Source: a virus
Direction: 5' to 3' (one strand)
Virus record (IMG/VR): IMGVR_UViG_3300028581_000068
Span: 1-48,825 of that record
DNA: 48,825 nucleotides
Below the pieces are notes generated by a model. It was not told the DNA's origin. It did no database searches and saw only the letters and a program-made list of their open reading frames with translations. Numbering within the stretch: the stretch's first letter is position 1; each line of letters opens with the position of its first letter. Of this stretch, positions 16,971 to 37,368 are shown piece after piece. The position numbers and the translations under genes were made by a program.

Positions 16971-19436
16971 TTAACCCTTTTGAACTTGATTTTTCATTTT
17001 AGCAGCCTCAACGTGTATCATCCTAGTTATTTCCCTAACAAATTCTGGGTTTTTGGCCAAATTCATATTGATTTTTTCGTTTCCAGGTGTCATTAATACA
17101 ATTTCACCACTTATATTTAAGTCGCCAAATTCATGTTTAACAGTATTTACACCAGCATTTTGTGACATTACTTTATCAACTATACCACCTGGTTTCATTG
17201 CAAGAATATCATCTTTATTATCAATTGGTGTGACATTTTTACCTTCTAATATAGCTCTTCTAGATTTACGTACAGATTTTTTAGTTCTGCTAAAAATCCC
17301 ATCTTCAACACCATATGTGTCTAAATCAAATAACTTTCCACCACCAAAAGCACCTATTCCACCACCAATAAGAGCACCTAAAGGTACGGTAACTGGAGCC
17401 ATTATACCACCAAAGGCACCGAGAGCAGCACCAGCTGAAGCACCAGCCAAAGCACCACCAAAAGCACCAACACCTTTTAATCCAGCTCTACCTAATGCCG
17501 CACCAGTTGACTTTCCCTTTTCTTTTTGTTCACCAAACTCATCATATGCTGCAAAACCGCCAGCTGCAACACCACCTAATCTTGTAGCCATAGACCCAGA
17601 AGCGCCTTTAAAATTAGCACCAAATTTTTGCATATTTGTCATACCAGCTCTATTCATAGCGTTCATATTTCTGGTGCCCATTATACCACCAGTTCCACCT
17701 CCTTTACCAGCAACAGTATTAAAACCAGCGCCAAAAGATAAACCCATAGTATACCATTTAGCAGCTTCAAGCAAACCTAACCCACCAATAGCACCAAGAA
17801 TAGCTGTTATTGGGTTTTCAGCGATAAATTTTCCTAAAGGTCCAATTAACCCTGCAAATGTCTTTGCAGCATCTTGAATTCCTTTGATTACATTTTCATC
17901 ACTTAAAACGAGTGCTAATTCTTTTGCTACTGGTCTAAATGCTTTATCAAAAGCCTCCAAGAAAGGTAATAAAAGTTGTTTCATTTGAGTAACCACATTT
18001 GAAAGGGTTTCATCAAATGTCTGTGCTTCTTGTGCTCTTTTTTGTAAACTAGCTTTTTCATCCATAGCAGCTTTAATAGCTTGTTGGTCAGCCTCGCTCA
18101 ATTGTTTCACCAACTTTGGACCGCTTTCTAATTGTATTACAGCTTCCCCATTTTCCATTGTAGCCGTATTTGCAATAAACTCTTTTGTCGCTGGGTCAAA
18201 GTCATATCTTATTTCTTTTTTAATCCCAACAGCTTGGGCTGCTGTTTTTGCAGCAGCGGCTAAGTTTTCAAAATCCAAGTTAGCAGCCTCAGCAACTTTT
18301 CTAAGTCTTTGCATTTCCATTGCACCAATCTCAAACTTTCCAGTTTTATCGCTAAAATCAGCTGAAGCAGCGGCAGCATTTATAACGGACTCTTCCAATG
18401 CGTCAACATCGTTTCTGGCCATATACATAAGCTTAAATGGGTCGGCCAATTTAGACCATTCACCACCCAAGACTTGTAATTGTGCTGACATATCAACAGC
18501 GCCTTCAATGTCAAACAACTTTTCAGCCATACCAGCTGTAAAACCCATATCAATTCCAAGCTTTGCAGCTCTTTCAGCCATTTTTGCCAAACCTTTAACA
18601 CCATCTTTAAAGTTGTATTTGTTAAGCATTTTAATATTTTGCTGAATGTTCTTTACAACCTTGCTTGAATTGATACCCATTCTAGACGTATCACTCACAA
18701 CTTGTTTTATAAATTCACCAGTTCTTTCAGCTGAAATACCTTGTTTTTCAAAATCAGCAGCCATTCTTGCCGCACCTTCAGCACCAATACCAGTACCTCT
18801 ACCAATAGCAGCAACTGATTCTAATGCTTGAGCACTAAGAAGAGCAGCTCTACCAAGCTCATCACTAAATGTGCCTTGAATCTCAGCTAATTCTTTTATA
18901 TCGGCTCCAAATATTGTTGTTTGACCAACAGCTAATTGTAGATTTTTTCTAAACATATCGCTTCTAGCACCAAGCAAACCCATGCTGGTAGAAGCTGTTC
19001 TTATAGATTTGTCAACTTCAAATAACCCACTCCAAGATTTAAATTTACTATAACCACCAGAAATTGTTGAATATATTGATTTAACATCTTTTGCTGCCAC
19101 ACCAATAGCTGACAAAGACTTTGCATACTTATTGGTTTCTTTGATTACCTTTACATATGTTTTTTGAGTCTCAGTTAATACCTCTAATTGTTTTTGTAAC
19201 AATTTAAGTTTCTCATCTTCTATGGCCCTTTGTTGAGGTGTAAGTGTTGTTGCTAATCTTGCGGTTACTTGTGCTATCTGTTGATTGACTGTATTTATAT
19301 CTTCATTAAGATTTTTTAAGTCCTTCATTAACTTAACATACTCACCAGAAGATTCAGCAATCTTCTTTCTAAGTTCAGCTTCCCTTTCTAATTGTTCTAA
19401 GGCTAATTTAGCCGCTTCTTGTGGTGTTAGTGCCAT
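16971..19436 (-). CDS. 29: Tail tape measure protein, 821 aa
   Basis: Predicted tape measure that sets tail length and occupies the tube lumen. It begins with a long charged coiled coil (residues 1-105, heptads around LKNLNEDINTVNQQIAQV). An Ala/Gly-rich helical body follows, then hydrophobic segments near residues 535-575 (AILGAIGGLGLLEAAKWYT) and Gly/Ala-rich membrane-like helices near 615-700 (GALAGASAGAALGAFGG), and a basic C-terminus. This layout, the size and the position downstream of the tail chaperone pair fit the family; T4 gp29 is 590 aa. If length scales with tail length, the tail should be longer than that of T4. The start shares one base with the stop of the 358-aa gene (TAATG), so the two are coupled. 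Confidence 0.82.
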   Translation of the reverse strand: MALTPQEAAKLALEQLEREAELRKKIAESSGEYVKLMKDLKNLNEDINTVNQQIAQVTARLATTLTPQQRAIEDEKLKLLQKQLEVLTETQKTYVKVIKETNKYAKSLSAIGVAAKDVKSIYSTISGGYSKFKSWSGLFEVDKSIRTASTSMGLLGARSDMFRKNLQLAVGQTTIFGADIKELAEIQGTFSDELGRAALLSAQALESVAAIGRGTGIGAEGAARMAADFEKQGISAERTGEFIKQVVSDTSRMGINSSKVVKNIQQNIKMLNKYNFKDGVKGLAKMAERAAKLGIDMGFTAGMAEKLFDIEGAVDMSAQLQVLGGEWSKLADPFKLMYMARNDVDALEESVINAAAASADFSDKTGKFEIGAMEMQRLRKVAEAANLDFENLAAAAKTAAQAVGIKKEIRYDFDPATKEFIANTATMENGEAVIQLESGPKLVKQLSEADQQAIKAAMDEKASLQKRAQEAQTFDETLSNVVTQMKQLLLPFLEAFDKAFRPVAKELALVLSDENVIKGIQDAAKTFAGLIGPLGKFIAENPITAILGAIGGLGLLEAAKWYTMGLSFGAGFNTVAGKGGGTGGIMGTRNMNAMNRAGMTNMQKFGANFKGASGSMATRLGGVAAGGFAAYDEFGEQKEKGKSTGAALGRAGLKGVGAFGGALAGASAGAALGAFGGIMAPVTVPLGALIGGGIGAFGGGKLFDLDTYGVEDGIFSRTKKSVRKSRRAILEGKNVTPIDNKDDILAMKPGGIVDKVMSQNAGVNTVKHEFGDLNISGEIVLMTPGNEKINMNLAKNPEFVREITRMIHVEAAKMKNQVQKG

Positions 19437-20576: not shown

Positions 20577-20918
20577 TTAATTTATTGGTATTTCACCAGT
20601 TTTTAACTTTGTTTTCAATGCATCACCGCTTAGTTTGGTTGACCTAGAACCCTTAGCATTTTTATTAGTTTGCTCTTCTTTCATTTTTTCATATTGTTCT
20701 TGCTTGATTTCAGAATCCCTGTTTAATCTACCAATATAAAATCTTCTTTCGTGCGTTGGCATATTCAATACATTAGAATATGGCATATTACGCATATACT
20801 GTGTGCAAATCCATATTTCTTCTAGTAGGTATTGTTTAAATTCTGAAGTCAGGCCAAAAAAAGTTGAGGTTAATTGGAAGAAAGGTTTCAACGGAACCAC
20901 CTCCAGGGGTTCCAACAT
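20577..20918 (-). CDS. Second tail-chaperone frame ('T' part), probably made by frameshift
   Basis: This frame overlaps the end of the 433-aa chaperone gene by 83 bases. The recognisable part starts at the overlap's T-run: FFGLTSEFKQYLLEE, then ICTQYMRNMPYSNVLNMPTH and ERRFYIGRLNRDSE. It resembles the small T4-like baseplate/tail assembly proteins (gp51/gp26-associated), whose pattern is a hydrophobic helix, a 'MP..ER.fyi.RL' motif and a charged Lys/Glu helix. The ATG at 20918 lies out of frame inside the other gene and encodes a proline-rich stretch with no family look, so independent initiation there is doubtful. More likely about 92 residues from 20855 down are added to the upstream protein by ribosomal slippage, as in lambda G/GT and Mu. 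Confidence 0.6.
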   Translation of the reverse strand: MLEPLEVVPLKPFFQLTSTFFGLTSEFKQYLLEEIWICTQYMRNMPYSNVLNMPTHERRFYIGRLNRDSEIKQEQYEKMKEEQTNKNAKGSRSTKLSGDALKTKLKTGEIPIN

Positions 20919-22137
20919 TTAGATTCAAATCAACTCCAGATTCAATTGAATTTACATATTGTGTAAATTCTTTTGCATCACGAATTCTAATAGATTCAAT
21001 GTAGTCCTTAATTAAATTTTTATCTCTGTGTCCATTAACTTCAACAATCATTTTTTGCATTGTGTAAGTTGTGTTTTTATTAACAGGAAGTCCATTTGCT
21101 TTGTCTTGTTCCAACATTGCTTCAATATCTTCAGCATCACCACATGTTAAAAATTTAAATTTTACTCTGTGTTTGCTAACTGGAAACATAAAATCAAACA
21201 AACCTTCGGCATCTGGCTCCGCACCAAAGTTTTTAAACTTTAAAGAATTAAGATTAATTTCAGTATCAAAAGGTTTGTCATTTTCATCCAACAAGGTAAC
21301 AGCATAATTCTCACCATAAGCGGTGGCTCTTAACCAAATCATAATAGCATTTCTATCACCAACCAACAAATCACGATATCTTAATTCTGGTTCCAAAACC
21401 TTTCTATTAATCAAAATTTCCAAAAACTCACCACTTTGCAATAAGTTAGGACTTGTTAAAATACTCTCATCAGCTGTTGTCATATACGACACTCTGATAT
21501 TTCCCTTTTTAGAAGGATATGATTTACCTTGAGAAGGCAACGGAATCACGTCAAAAGCAGTGTTAAAATCTGGCTGACTTAACGCATGTATGTGTGGGTT
21601 TATATTAGATGGGACTTGGCCATAATTTTGTGGTTGCGTCATTGGTTGTTGAACAGGAGCTGAATAAGCCTGTGAAGGTTGTGAATACTGTTGATACGTA
21701 TTGTTTTGCATAGGTTGGTTTGTATTTTGTTGATTATTTTGTTTACTTGAAGCCTCATCCACCTGTCTTTGATAATTTTGAATCATTGAAGCATTTTTAG
21801 CCAAATTTTCGTCACGGAGCCTAATTTGCTCTTCTGACCTTCTTCTAATCTCATCCATTTCTGAATTATTCATGACTGGTCTTTGTGATACTTCAGCCAA
21901 TGAAGGGTCTTGAACAAACCCTTGTTGGTTTTTTAATTTAAGCTGTTCTTCAGTCCTTCTTCTCATCATTTCAACAGCACTAACATGTCCAGCTGGAGTG
22001 TCTTGTGGATGCATTGAATTTGTATATACTTCATTTGTTGCCATTGCTTTTTCAGCTTCAAAAGCTGCTTGTTTTGCTCTTTCATCAGCAGCTTCTTTTT
22101 GTTCCTTGTTTGGGAAAACACTAGGTTTCTTGTCCAT
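20836..22137 (-). CDS. Tail assembly chaperone / gp26-like baseplate hub protein, 433 aa
   Basis: Predicted chaperone or hub-assembly protein acting on the tape measure. The N-terminal ~170 residues are Gln/Asn/Glu-rich and low-complexity, with two copies of an MxxxRRRxEEQxxL-like repeat (EMMRRRTEEQLKLKNQQG and EIRRRSEEQIRLRDENLA). The conserved domain covers residues about 198-410: VIPLPSQGKSYP, IRVSYMTTADESILTSP, LVGDRNAIMIWLRATAYGEN and a late FKFLTCGDAEDIEAM. This pattern matches the T4 baseplate gp26 family. A T7 slip site lies just before the stop and would fuse it to the next frame. The gene lies upstream of the tape measure, where tail chaperones usually lie. It has its own late-type promoter. 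Confidence 0.78.
   Translation of the reverse strand: MDKKPSVFPNKEQKEAADERAKQAAFEAEKAMATNEVYTNSMHPQDTPAGHVSAVEMMRRRTEEQLKLKNQQGFVQDPSLAEVSQRPVMNNSEMDEIRRRSEEQIRLRDENLAKNASMIQNYQRQVDEASSKQNNQQNTNQPMQNNTYQQYSQPSQAYSAPVQQPMTQPQNYGQVPSNINPHIHALSQPDFNTAFDVIPLPSQGKSYPSKKGNIRVSYMTTADESILTSPNLLQSGEFLEILINRKVLEPELRYRDLLVGDRNAIMIWLRATAYGENYAVTLLDENDKPFDTEINLNSLKFKNFGAEPDAEGLFDFMFPVSKHRVKFKFLTCGDAEDIEAMLEQDKANGLPVNKNTTYTMQKMIVEVNGHRDKNLIKDYIESIRIRDAKEFTQYVNSIESGVDLNLNVGTPGGGSVETFLPINLNFFWPDFRI
20856..20862 (-). other. Candidate programmed frameshift site (T7 run)
   Basis: In the coding strand the 433-aa gene reads AAC TTT TTT TGG. Seven consecutive T residues let two Phe-tRNAs re-pair. A -2 (or +1) shift gives GGC CTG ACT TCA, which enters the second chaperone frame exactly where its conserved region starts. 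A -1 shift would meet a TGA after two codons. The unshifted frame stops 18 bases beyond the run. Predicted fusion size is about 519-520 aa. Confidence 0.6.
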
Positions 22138-22268: not shown

Positions 22269-23156
22269 TCATAAACCTAATTCGTTTTTTAATCTTTTAA
22301 TAACTTCTTCACGTTTTAAATTAATATCGGTCTCCCAAAAACGTAATAATTTTATTTGTTTATTTTCTGCTATTCTATTTTTTCTAAAATCATTAGCAAC
22401 CGTTTTTAATTGTATAGGATATGTTGGTATATTGTGTTTTGTATTTGGGTTGCAATGATAAAAATCACCATCTACCTCAATTAATATATTATAATTAAAA
22501 AGATAAAAATCAAATATTGCAGAACTTATTTGATGTTGAAATTTAAAATCTACGTTTTCAACTAAACCAAAAGACTCTAATATTAATTGAAAAGTTTTTT
22601 CTAATTTAGTTTTCTTTTTAACATAGTTATTATCTGTTAATCTTTTAATTGTTAATTCTGATTGTTTTAATCTTTCATCTGGATTAGACCATCTTATTTT
22701 TGATTTTTCTGATAGTTTATTTCTATGTTTTTCTGATTTTGCTACACCACTTAAAGCCTTTGATATGTTTTCACCTCTATTTGGATTTGACATTACTTTT
22801 TGAACATTAGCTCTAACTCTTTTATCATCAATTGTTAACCCTTTATTCCAAATAATCAATTCACCATTTTTATACATTTCTTTTTGAGTCTCATGTGATT
22901 TTTTGATAGCTTCTGGGTTATGCCCCCAGTTATTATAAACCCTAGAAGCATGACCAAGTATATATTCAACAAACCCCTTTTCTATTGAAAGAAAATTTGT
23001 TCTAGAACCACAACCACATTTACATAATGGTGGTCTACCGTCAAGTTTATAGTCAATGTATGTTTGCTCAGCACTAATCTTATGTTTTTGTACTCTGTGT
23101 CTTCTCAACGAATCCAAAGTTTCAAATTCTCTATTACATTCTTTACATATTAACAT
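22269..23156 (-). CDS. Free-standing homing endonuclease (C2H2 finger, NUMOD3-like, Vsr-type nuclease)
   Basis: Predicted selfish DNA endonuclease of 295 aa. It starts with a C2H2 zinc finger (CKECNREF … HRVQKH) and a second Cys cluster (CKCGCG). The middle has repeated NUMOD3-type DNA-binding helices (NISKALSGVAKSEKHRNKLS). The C-terminal nuclease domain is of the Vsr/EDxHD (PD-(D/E)xK-like) kind: FDFYLFNYNILIEVDGDFYH, then NDFRKNRIAENKQIKLLRFW. It is inserted between the tail tube and chaperone genes and carries its own host-type promoter and terminator. It is therefore a self-contained unit expressed on a schedule different from its late neighbours. Its target is probably the same intergenic site in related phages lacking it. 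Confidence 0.82.
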   Translation of the reverse strand: MLICKECNREFETLDSLRRHRVQKHKISAEQTYIDYKLDGRPPLCKCGCGSRTNFLSIEKGFVEYILGHASRVYNNWGHNPEAIKKSHETQKEMYKNGELIIWNKGLTIDDKRVRANVQKVMSNPNRGENISKALSGVAKSEKHRNKLSEKSKIRWSNPDERLKQSELTIKRLTDNNYVKKKTKLEKTFQLILESFGLVENVDFKFQHQISSAIFDFYLFNYNILIEVDGDFYHCNPNTKHNIPTYPIQLKTVANDFRKNRIAENKQIKLLRFWETDINLKREEVIKRLKNELGL

Positions 23157-23252: not shown

Positions 23253-23741
23253 TCAAAACAAGAGTATAGCTCTGTCAAAACGCAATGTTGCGGTAATCTC
23301 AGCTATACCATCATCATCCATTGATAAGTCACCGAAGCCAACGTTGGTTAACATTGTTCCGTCCAATAACCATTTCTCAACCACAACACCAGTCGGGTCA
23401 AGCAATTCAAGTTCAACTGGACGCTTGTAACCAGCCGCATAACCTTGACGACCTGTGATAGATTCAGAATGAAGACGTACCCATTCCATTATTGCTTGTG
23501 AAGCAGAAGGACCAATTGGGTCACGGAAAGTAACATCAATAGCTTCCCATGTAAAACGTCCAATAACCCATGTTGAAGTGTTAAGGAACGGAATTTCAAC
23601 CTCATTTTGAGTAATTGATGGTCTGGAAGCAGATGCTAGCCACCATTGTTGAATACCCAAGTCTGCTGGGAAAGTAATAAGCCAACGATTCTTTTTCTTA
23701 GGTTCGTAAGGCAAAGGCATTTTCATTAGTAAATCAGCCAT
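23253..23741 (-). CDS. 19: Tail tube protein (T4 gp19-like), 162 aa
   Basis: Predicted subunit of the inner tail tube through which DNA passes. It has 162 residues against 163 in T4 gp19 and the same layout: a short N-terminus, then KNRWLITFPADLG, the WLASASRPSITQNEVEIPFL segment typical of tube proteins, TWEAIDVTFRDP, and a C-terminal domain ending in IAEITATLRFDRAILLF. GC and codon use are higher than in neighbouring genes, as is common for highly expressed virion genes. A late element lies upstream. Confidence 0.9.
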   Translation of the reverse strand: MADLLMKMPLPYEPKKKNRWLITFPADLGIQQWWLASASRPSITQNEVEIPFLNTSTWVIGRFTWEAIDVTFRDPIGPSASQAIMEWVRLHSESITGRQGYAAGYKRPVELELLDPTGVVVEKWLLDGTMLTNVGFGDLSMDDDGIAEITATLRFDRAILLF

Positions 23742-23886: not shown

Positions 23887-24177
23887 ATGGAGAATTTTAA
23901 TTTAACAAAAGATGAGCTACAAGCTCTATACAGAGAAGAACTAAACGATATTTTGGAACAATGTGATTGGATAACCTATGTTAAACCTGAGCTTATCTGT
24001 CTTGTAGTTTCAAACGTAATGAACAAAAAAGGATATGACGTACCATGTTCTGAACTTTATGAACTATATGACACTGAAGTTAAAAGAATAAACGTAAGTC
24101 CAGAAACATGGCAAAAAGAATTTGGTATTGAAGAGATTATCTCAATAATATACGATATCCTGTTAAAAAATTTCTAA
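23887..24177 (+). CDS. Hypothetical protein, 96 aa
   Basis: Not recognised. It is a small acidic, helical-looking protein (MENFNLTKDELQALYREEL start; Leu/Glu/Asp-rich), without a signal or membrane segment. It points opposite to the tail tube gene and is followed 48 bases later by the CAP-domain gene. The region upstream has a weak promoter-like TTTACA … TATATTA. The small plus-strand pair looks like an inserted accessory cassette in a block of minus-strand tail genes. Confidence 0.6.
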   Translation: MENFNLTKDELQALYREELNDILEQCDWITYVKPELICLVVSNVMNKKGYDVPCSELYELYDTEVKRINVSPETWQKEFGIEEIISIIYDILLKNF

Positions 24178-24225: not shown

Positions 24226-24780
24226 ATGATAATGAAAAGATTATTGTTAATTATCTGCACGATATCAAGTCTATTGTCCTATGGTCAAGACTATGAAATG
24301 CTTAATTTTATAAACATTTATAGGGTAAAAAATGGTTGTGAATCGGTAATCTACTCTGAAGATTTAGAAAAAATAGCAAAAACACAAAATACTTTAAACA
24401 CTATATCAGATAGCATTGCTCATTCACATAAGGCCAGCGAGATTGCCTTAAAAGGAAACTCTTCACCAGCGACAAAAATTAGTAGAGATGTTTTTACTAA
24501 TTTTTTACAAAAGTACTTTAAATTAGATTACAAAGAACCGAAAACAGAAATTGAAGCACTAACATTAACAAAGCTATACTCAATTTATCTGTTCAGCACT
24601 TCAAAAAACCATAATAATATTCTATTAGGCGAATACAAATATGTTGGTTTTGACTTCGTAGCCAACAATATTAAACTCAAATCAAATGTGGTTAAAATAG
24701 GTGACAAAGAGTATAAACTAAATAACGTTATATCTCATCACAATGTTAATTTTTACGTTGTAATTAACTTTAAAAAGTAA
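24226..24780 (+). CDS. Secreted CAP/SCP-like domain protein, 184 aa
   Basis: The protein begins with a clear signal peptide (KRLLLIICTISSLLSYGQ), ending in the SYGQ-type junction common in flavobacteria. The mature part resembles the CAP (SCP/PR-1) fold: LNFINIYRVKNGCESVIYSE corresponds to 'lN.yR...gl..l.ws..L', then IAHSHKASE and HNNILLGEYKYVGFDFV to 'H...il...y..vG.g'. Many CAP proteins are secreted and some act on lipids or walls; no reaction can be assigned here. A strong host-type promoter upstream and its orientation against the tail genes suggest an accessory 'moron' that alters the host envelope or surface. ATG at 24226 or 24232 could start it. The last 11 bases overlap the end of the converging 370-aa gene. 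Confidence 0.7.
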   Translation: MIMKRLLLIICTISSLLSYGQDYEMLNFINIYRVKNGCESVIYSEDLEKIAKTQNTLNTISDSIAHSHKASEIALKGNSSPATKISRDVFTNFLQKYFKLDYKEPKTEIEALTLTKLYSIYLFSTSKNHNNILLGEYKYVGFDFVANNIKLKSNVVKIGDKEYKLNNVISHHNVNFYVVINFKK

Positions 24781-36603: not shown

Positions 36604-37368
36604 TTACATTTCTTTATATTTCCATAAATACCCACCAGCTGTTTTCCTTTTACCACTTAAAACAGCATTAATATGTGGATATATTTTTTTAACATCATTT
36701 ACTGATTTCCATTCACAAATTAATTCTTCTAATTTCGAAAGTTGTTGAATTATTTTAGGAGTTTGTTTTAAATGTTTATTTTTTATTTTTAATATTTCTT
36801 CTTTAGTTAAACAATCATTTTTATATCTCCAAATATAACCACCAGCACTATTTCTTTTTTTATTAATAACGCTATTAATATTTTTAATACCTAAATTTTC
36901 TTTAATATAATTAGCTGATTCATATTCATTTAGTTTATTTCCATCTAAATCATACTGAATAATAATATCTTTAATAGTAGATTTTTTAAATAAATTAATG
37001 TTTTTTGGTGTTTTACCTTTTTTAGCTAAAGACATTTTATTTTTTGTCTCATCACTTACTTTTCTACCATATGAACCTTCCCCGCCATCGGAGTTGTTAA
37101 CAAGTTTAAAACCCCATACTCTAAATTGAGATATCCAATATTGTTCCCAAAACACCCACTCATTTTTATTTACTTCATCTATTATATTCATTATTGGTTT
37201 TTCATTTTTATTTAATAATGATTTAATCCATGAACAGCGTTTATTTTTACCACCATTATTTTTACCATCAAAAATATGTCTATAATATCTTCTTTTGGGG
37301 TTTTTTGTTTGGCCAACATATCTAACACCTAATTTATCAGATAATGTATATATATAAATTGTTTCCAT
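36604..37368 (-). CDS. GIY-YIG free-standing homing endonuclease, 254 aa
   Basis: The N-terminal GIY-YIG nuclease domain is complete: IYIYTLSDKLGVRYVGQTKN, Arg in KRRYYRHI, and WVFWEQYWISQFR with the catalytic Glu. It is followed by NNSDGGEG and a NUMOD3 motif (SDETKNKMSLAKKGKTP). Two NUMOD1-like repeats follow (SANYIKENLGIKNINSVINK plus SAGGYIWRY, and SVNDVKKIYPHINAVLSGK plus TAGGYLWKY), which bind DNA. It is a mobile gene inserted between two virion genes, sparing the late promoter of the next gene. The usual target is the empty site in a related phage. It is AT-richer than the flanking genes, as expected for a mobile insert. Confidence 0.88.
   Translation of the reverse strand: METIYIYTLSDKLGVRYVGQTKNPKRRYYRHIFDGKNNGGKNKRCSWIKSLLNKNEKPIMNIIDEVNKNEWVFWEQYWISQFRVWGFKLVNNSDGGEGSYGRKVSDETKNKMSLAKKGKTPKNINLFKKSTIKDIIIQYDLDGNKLNEYESANYIKENLGIKNINSVINKKRNSAGGYIWRYKNDCLTKEEILKIKNKHLKQTPKIIQQLSKLEELICEWKSVNDVKKIYPHINAVLSGKRKTAGGYLWKYKEM

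Follow-up and report, generated by a model that had tools for sequence, protein, structure and literature searches.

Organization of the locus

The window, namely the whole stretch of 48,825 nucleotides (nt) of viral DNA analyzed here (IMG/VR record IMGVR_UViG_3300028581_000068, positions 1 to 48,825), carries on its minus strand a T4 gp26-like gene (gene A), the 3' end of which overlaps a second open frame (frame B). The comparative evidence suggests that this gene probably undergoes a +1 ribosomal frameshift giving a minor long tail-assembly chaperone and that, in the clade to which the window belongs, the slip most likely occurs at UUU-CUU_CCN. The features involved are the following:

20836..22137, minus strand: gene A, putative short tail-assembly chaperone (TAC-N), 433 amino acids (aa), with a T4 gp26-like C-terminal domain
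20893..20913, minus strand: predicted upstream RNA hairpin GGAACC-CCTGGAGGT-GGTTCC (covariation, RNAalifold consensus and minimum free energy)
20876..20883, minus strand: TTTCTTCC (UUU CUU_CC), where the +1 slip of this phage most likely occurs
20863..20875, minus strand: 13-nt stretch separating the two slip motifs, with signs of being read in both frames (substitution rates and absence of B-frame stops)
20856..20862, minus strand: T7 run (AAC TTT TTT TGG), the +1 slip site of relatives and probably the ancestral one; in this phage, either another candidate or a dual-coded sequence
20836..20838, minus strand: 0-frame stop codon TAA, end of the short product
20577..20876, minus strand: frame B, predicted C-terminal extension of about 99 aa, accessible only by a +1 shift

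The 3' end of gene A encodes ...TPGGGS-V-E-TFLPINLNFFWPDFRI, and 17 nt plus the stop codon lie between the T7 run and the end of the gene. Frame B is open from 20918 to 20577 (20918..20577, minus strand, +1/-2 relative to gene A), and its FFGLTSEFKQ segment starts at the T7 run. As the first-pass annotation of this DNA pointed out, a -1 shift at the T7 run leads at once to a stop (TTG GCC TGA), so that frame B is accessible only by a +1 or a -2 shift. That annotation missed both the TTTCTTCC motif, which is located 13 nt 5' of the T7 run, and the hairpin (20913..20893). In the numbering used below, position 0 is the first G after the T7 run (window position 20855), the T7 run occupies positions -7..-1, TTTCTTCC positions -28..-21 and the hairpin positions -58..-38.

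Conservation of the frame relation

Relatives of the locus were fetched by protein similarity, and comprise the window clade, the L153 family, an immuto-like family and a mid-distance set including the marine FFRP family. Further members of the window clade were fetched by means of a DNA pattern in which the motif served as bait, and the conclusions were checked against the loci fetched by protein similarity.

When counting starts at the site equivalent to the T7 run, 304 of the 307 related loci, which belong to four families, have a +1 frame without a stop for 45 codons or more, while none of the 307 has a 0 or -1 frame open over this length. The -1 frame stops after 2-18 codons in all 100 window-clade sequences (100/100). 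Among 80 relatives fetched by protein similarity, TTTTTTTGGCCT is kept, and the relative frame of B is unchanged, at each locus where the site is undamaged and in frame; the only exceptions are three loci truncated by the end of the contig and L067, which carries indels. The comparison of sequences thus establishes the frame relation and its conservation, and indicates that the overlap of the A and B frames is real and not due to chance. The claim that a programmed shift joins the two frames is supported. A scan of 257 Gb of contigs from bacteria and archaea with the DNA pattern TTTCTTCC-N13-TTTTTTTGGCC gave 22 matches, none of which was in a tail-gene context and which are attributable to chance only.

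The slip motif in related families

Of the non-redundant sequences of the distant families, 34/67 and 14/67 have a B-frame stop at codon -12 or -18. Since these stops lie immediately 5' of the run, the switch of frame must take place at the run in these families. The natural variants of the site found there are TTTTTTTGG, TTCTTTTGG, TTTCTTTGG and TTTTTTT followed by AC, AT or C; Streptococcus phage GXN1 has GAA TTC TTT CGT and Bacillus phage SP-15 has TTT TTT CAC. The marine family has TTTTTTCGT, in which +1 re-pairing is kept as it is in TTCTTTTGG and TTTCTTTGG. The second codon of the variants is YTT followed by a pyrimidine, which means that the P-site tRNA can re-pair one base forward. The recurring slip motif is UUU-YUU_Y. 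LR756508 (AAC TTT CTA) and Listeria phage LIS04 (TTT TTT AGT) fit a +1 shift at the first Phe codon, and a -1 relation was found in two distant cases, LR756511 and cyanophage S-PM2 (T TTT TTC).

In the marine T4-like family (L411-L468), 28/28 distinct junctions show TTTTTTCGN, nearly all of them with UUU_CGU, the +1 motif of influenza PA-X. In S-PM2, the 57-aa 'gp51' (L483:1100-1364) does not seem to be a separate gene but to extend gp26 through a -1 frameshift.

A second candidate slip motif in the window's clade

The sequence TTT CTT_CCN, which is located 21 nt upstream of the T7 site, follows the same UUU-YUU_Y rule. On a minimum spanning tree of 100 clade sequences (the tree-based counts given here come from such a tree and not from a fitted model), TTTCTTCC underwent 0 substitutions, and T7GGCCT was also unchanged. 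The third positions of frame A located 5' of TTTCTTCC showed 36 changes per site in the window clade, and those between the two motifs showed 22, 0, 9, 12 and 23 changes (mean 13), a value near that of the second positions of frame B downstream (12 changes). The corresponding sites in the distant families mostly evolve at the unconstrained rate. B-frame stops are absent from the inter-motif stretch (0/67), as against 48.9+-2.8 expected when the A-frame synonymous codons were re-drawn, and they occur in this stretch in 39/77 and 14/76 sequences of two distant families. Taken together, the rates and the lack of stops establish a dual-frame constraint at the sequence level: translation in frame A only is insufficient to account for the stretch, whereas reading of frame B from TTTCTTCC onward would account for it.

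The codon at the A site is CCC in 37/67 clade sequences versus 23/1420 of the proline codons present elsewhere in gene A (Fisher p=1e-39, odds about 75-fold), and the pattern is the same in the subset fetched by protein similarity (18/41). L398, which was also fetched in this way, has TAC TTT CCC, where the first TTT is lost and YUU_CCC is kept. In a sample of 13 genes of the window (positions 1-42000), CCC accounts for 3/394 proline codons, a rarity which makes its enrichment at the slip site of relatives stand out. The hairpin, TTTCTTCC and the constrained inter-motif stretch are all restricted to the window clade.

Several points weigh against slippage at the upstream motif. At the A site, the window itself has CCA, a proline codon in common use; the invariance of TTTCTTCC and its neighborhood could reflect a non-coding RNA constraint and not B-frame translation; the T7 run, at which the relatives slip, is invariant here too and could still work; and since many of the clade sequences were baited with the motif, only the subset fetched by protein similarity is unbiased.

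The upstream hairpin

The hairpin has its 5' boundary at -58/-57 and its 3' boundary at -38. In the 68-sequence non-redundant set, 5.71 of its 6 pairs are formed on average, as compared with 5.19+-0.05 when the 3' arms were permuted (maximum 5.40 in 2000 permutations), and in 56 distinct sequences 95.2% of the cells are paired versus 90.3+-0.7 after shuffling. The covariation score is 0.224 versus 0.137 in the shuffled data, and 0/500 shuffles scored as high. The compensatory stems include GGTCTC/GAGACC (L076), GGAACC/GGTTCC (window) and AGGTTC/GAACCT (L397). The minimum free energy of the copy in the window is -11.8 kcal/mol, and the RNAalifold consensus recovers the hairpin in the clade, while runs on two distant families gave no such hairpin. 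The comparative data thus establish a covarying hairpin, the 3' end of which lies 12 nt from the CUU slip codon and 33 nt from the P-site codon of the T7 run. Upstream hairpins adjoining the E site have been found to enhance +1 shifting in 70S translation and to reduce -1 shifting (PMC6321510).

Two other elements were considered and rejected. GGAGGTG has the wrong spacing for a Shine-Dalgarno (SD) sequence acting in +1 shifting, for which the SD precedes the slip codon by about 3 nt (PMC5009743); GGAGG precedes CUU by about 19 nt and the T7 slip codon by 40 nt, which is not the prfB-type arrangement, and relatives show GGGGGA, AGAGG or GGAGA at this place with the hairpin kept. A long-range pairing TTTCTTC:GARGARA proposed by RNAalifold is explained by conserved Glu codons and shows no compensatory changes.

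The position of the slip site in the window clade is the point on which the strongest rival differs. The +1 shift might occur at the T7 run (AAC UUU UUU_UGG) in this phage too, in which case the TTTCTTCC stretch would be an RNA element, perhaps paired with the hairpin loop (GGAGG with CUUCC). The run does serve as the slip site in the distant families and is invariant in the window clade, and the loop consensus GGRGG could pair with CUUCC. Yet slippage at the T7 run leaves the near-absence of A-frame wobble changes, the 0/67 B-frame stops, the enrichment in CCC and the 33 nt between the hairpin and the T7 P-site codon unexplained. As regards the GGAGG:CUUCC pseudoknot, which we also rejected, the geometry is possible, but no covariation was detected, several variants, such as AGAGG and GGAGA, break the pairing, and folding of the hairpin itself leaves the loop G's partly base-paired. 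We therefore regard the T7 run as a possible but unlikely slip site here. The dual-frame stretch, the lack of stops, the CCC codons and the spacing of the hairpin favor the upstream motif, and the initial identification of the T7 run as the slip site, which fits the distant families where B-frame stops adjoin the run, is doubtful in this phage, the evidence from its clade pointing 21 nt upstream.

Other explanations for the overlap

A -2 shift of the kind known in phage Mu, which had been placed foremost in the first-pass annotation, gives access to the same frame, and both the T7 run and UUCUUC in the window would permit P-site re-pairing at -2. Re-pairing of this kind is impossible, however, in TTCTTTTGG, in TTTCTTTGG, in phage GXN1 (TTC TTT CGT) and in L398 (TAC TTT CCC), all of which can re-pair only by +1 and in which the B frame is unchanged. 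The natural variants therefore argue that the shift is +1 and not -2, and the latter is very improbable.

It is just as hard to credit that B is translated alone from an internal start. The window does contain a TTG located just after GGAGGTG and, at 20918, an ATG, but the latter is missing from 86%-identical relatives, no ATG, GTG or TTG is present within the open B frame in 43/104 clade sequences, a stop at -36 removes the TTG position in 33/104, and the B-frame stop of the distant families abuts the slip site. The lack of a conserved start codon suggests that B is a frameshifted extension of A. As in loci of the G/GT type, the second frame overlaps the first without a start of its own, and the slip site is conserved.

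Slippage of the RNA polymerase on the T7 run, giving mixed mRNAs, is the least credible explanation of all, since despite the presence of a homopolymer of seven T, a length which is short for polymerase slippage, the run is broken in relatives (to T4, to TTTCTTT or to T6 before CGT) with the overlap kept.

Proposed mechanism and products

From the comparative data we infer the shift itself, its efficiency, the role of the hairpin and the chaperone function of the products. The product of gene A would be the short form of the tail-assembly chaperone in a T4-like myophage. Close to the 3' end of the gene, a minority of the ribosomes would shift by +1 and go on reading in frame B, so that a long chaperone of about 519 aa would be made as a minor product. 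When tRNA-Phe occupies the E site and the tRNA decoding YUU the P site, both tRNAs might re-pair one base forward during the wait for the A-site tRNA. At UUU-CUU_CCN, tRNA-Phe would move from UUU to UUC and tRNA-Leu from CUU to UUC, with CCN as the A-site codon. In the distant families, the slip would take place at UUU-UUU_UGG (the T7 run) or variants of it, and in the window clade at UUU-CUU_CCN (20883..20875), where slow decoding of the next codon would assist it. The hairpin, which ends 12 nt before the slip codon, may refold at the mRNA exit and thus help the slip, and the T7 run may have been kept either as an ancestral dual-coded sequence or as a back-up.

The calculated products are 433 aa for the short form and 519 aa for the fusion resulting from a +1 shift at either site, in good agreement with the sizes of 433 and about 520 aa initially proposed. 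The predicted junctions are VETFLQLTSTFFGLTSEFK (slip on CUU), VETFFQLTSTFFGLTSEFK (slip on UUU) and VETFLPINLNFFGLTSEFK (T7 run, +1). The junction peptides predicted for the upstream site are ...VETFLQLTSTFFGL or ...VETFFQLTSTFFGL, and the longer versions are ...TFLQLTSTFFGLTSEFK or ...TFFQLTSTFFGL for the upstream site and ...NLNFFGLTSEFK for +1 at the T7 run, ...NLNFFFGL being that of a -2 shift.

We lean, with some reserve, toward a scenario in which the clade duplicated and moved its +1 slip motif: shifting would now depend on UUU-CUU_CCC and its dedicated hairpin, the ancestral T7 site 21 nt downstream would survive as a dual-coded sequence, and the wider family would share UUU-YUU_Y, including the exact UUU_CGU.

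Genomic context

Gene A matches PHROG 150 ('baseplate hub', T4 gp26) with E=4e-8 across residues 206-415. The window gene A reached no match with Pfam PF12322, and its relative L153 matches this family with E=2e-16. Two neighboring genes help to define the locus:

23253..23741, minus strand: tail tube gene, located 5' of the chaperone gene (PHROG 4542, E=6e-25)
16971..19436, minus strand: probable tape measure gene, 821 aa, downstream (position and length only)

No family match was found for the 821-aa gene. The location of gene A between the tail tube gene and the putative tape measure gene is the usual one for a tail-assembly chaperone and, together with the PHROG 150 match, it bears out the earlier assignment of the two frames to tail-assembly chaperones encoded 5' of the tape measure gene. 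The gene order sheath, tube, hub, small open reading frame (ORF), tape measure is also found in Microcystis phage Mel-JY01, the Flavobacterium immuto phages and Listeria phage LIS04.

Between the tail tube and chaperone genes, a DUF559-type endonuclease with an N-terminal C2H2 zinc finger (22269-23156, minus strand) resembles a free-standing homing endonuclease, and a second probable homing endonuclease with HNH/GIY-YIG type matches is present at 36604-37368 (minus strand). Two plus-strand ORFs, 23887-24177 (96 aa) and 24226-24780 (184 aa), lie inside the otherwise minus-strand tail cluster.

Comparison with known systems

Frameshifting as such has already been published for T4-like chaperone genes. 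Vladimirov, Gautam and Davidson (2022, Virology 566:9-15), as cited in PRFect (PMC10274946) and PMC12846349, are credited with reporting that T4-like chaperone genes frameshift, that some T4-like phages have separate short and long genes, and that others have poly-T signals described as -1. T4 was listed as an exception to tail-chaperone frameshifting by Atkins et al. (PMC5009743), and no general forward-shift motif was known according to PRFect (PMC10274946). The +1 direction, the UUU-YUU_Y rule, the marine UUU_CGU, the covarying hairpin and the apparent relocation were not found described in the openly available papers searched.

PF12322 and PHROG 150 each include gp26 as well as gp51 of T4, gp51 reaching about 45 profile positions further at its C-terminus, and hhalign gives a probability of 99.2% for their relationship. 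B matches the tail of gp51 weakly (E=2e-5 over 30 columns). These profile comparisons indicate that gp51 is paralogous to gp26 and that its tail weakly resembles B. The proposal of a gp26/gp51-type pair thus stands as far as gp26-like gene A is concerned, but B alone is not gp51, which matches the long fusion product. In T4 itself (L230:5803-7229), the gp26 and gp51 paralogues are on opposite strands, and this paralogy agrees with the account of separate short and long genes given by Vladimirov et al.

T4 and the present phage therefore share the family (PHROG 150), the place before the tape measure gene and the existence of short and long forms, but T4 uses two separate genes, whereas here there is one gene with a predicted +1 shift. 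In S-PM2, the small 'gp51' would arise via -1 at U_UUU_UUC, unlike the +1 shift proposed here. Lambda gpG/gpGT resembles the present case in that one gene located 5' of the tape measure gene gives two chaperones sharing their N-terminal part, but it differs in its -1 shift at GGGAAAG and in its unrelated protein family. In prfB, CUU_U promotes +1 with P-site re-pairing from CUU to UUU, as would occur in the immuto phages, as compared with CUU to UUC here; an upstream duplex at the mRNA exit is common to both systems, formed by an SD 3 nt upstream in prfB and by a covarying hairpin here. The marine relatives have exactly the UUU_CGU of the influenza A PA-X +1 shift, with P-site re-pairing from UUU to UUC (compare PMC3498833), but they are phages using bacterial ribosomes, and the window has UUU-CUU_CCA and UUU-UUU_UGG. 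Phage Mu has the same target frame and the same type of gene, with the -2 shift excluded here by the natural variants.

Implications

The deeply conserved +1 version of the tail chaperone frameshift, with its hundreds of natural variants, makes the sequence rules of bacterial +1 shifting directly testable, and the window clade provides a natural test of an upstream hairpin driving +1, a situation so far studied mainly in synthetic constructs. As regards annotation, the small ORF following gp26 in such phages would not be a separate gene. If the present interpretation is true, UUU-YUU_Y would be a general +1 motif for a class of frameshifts which has so far had none in bacteria.
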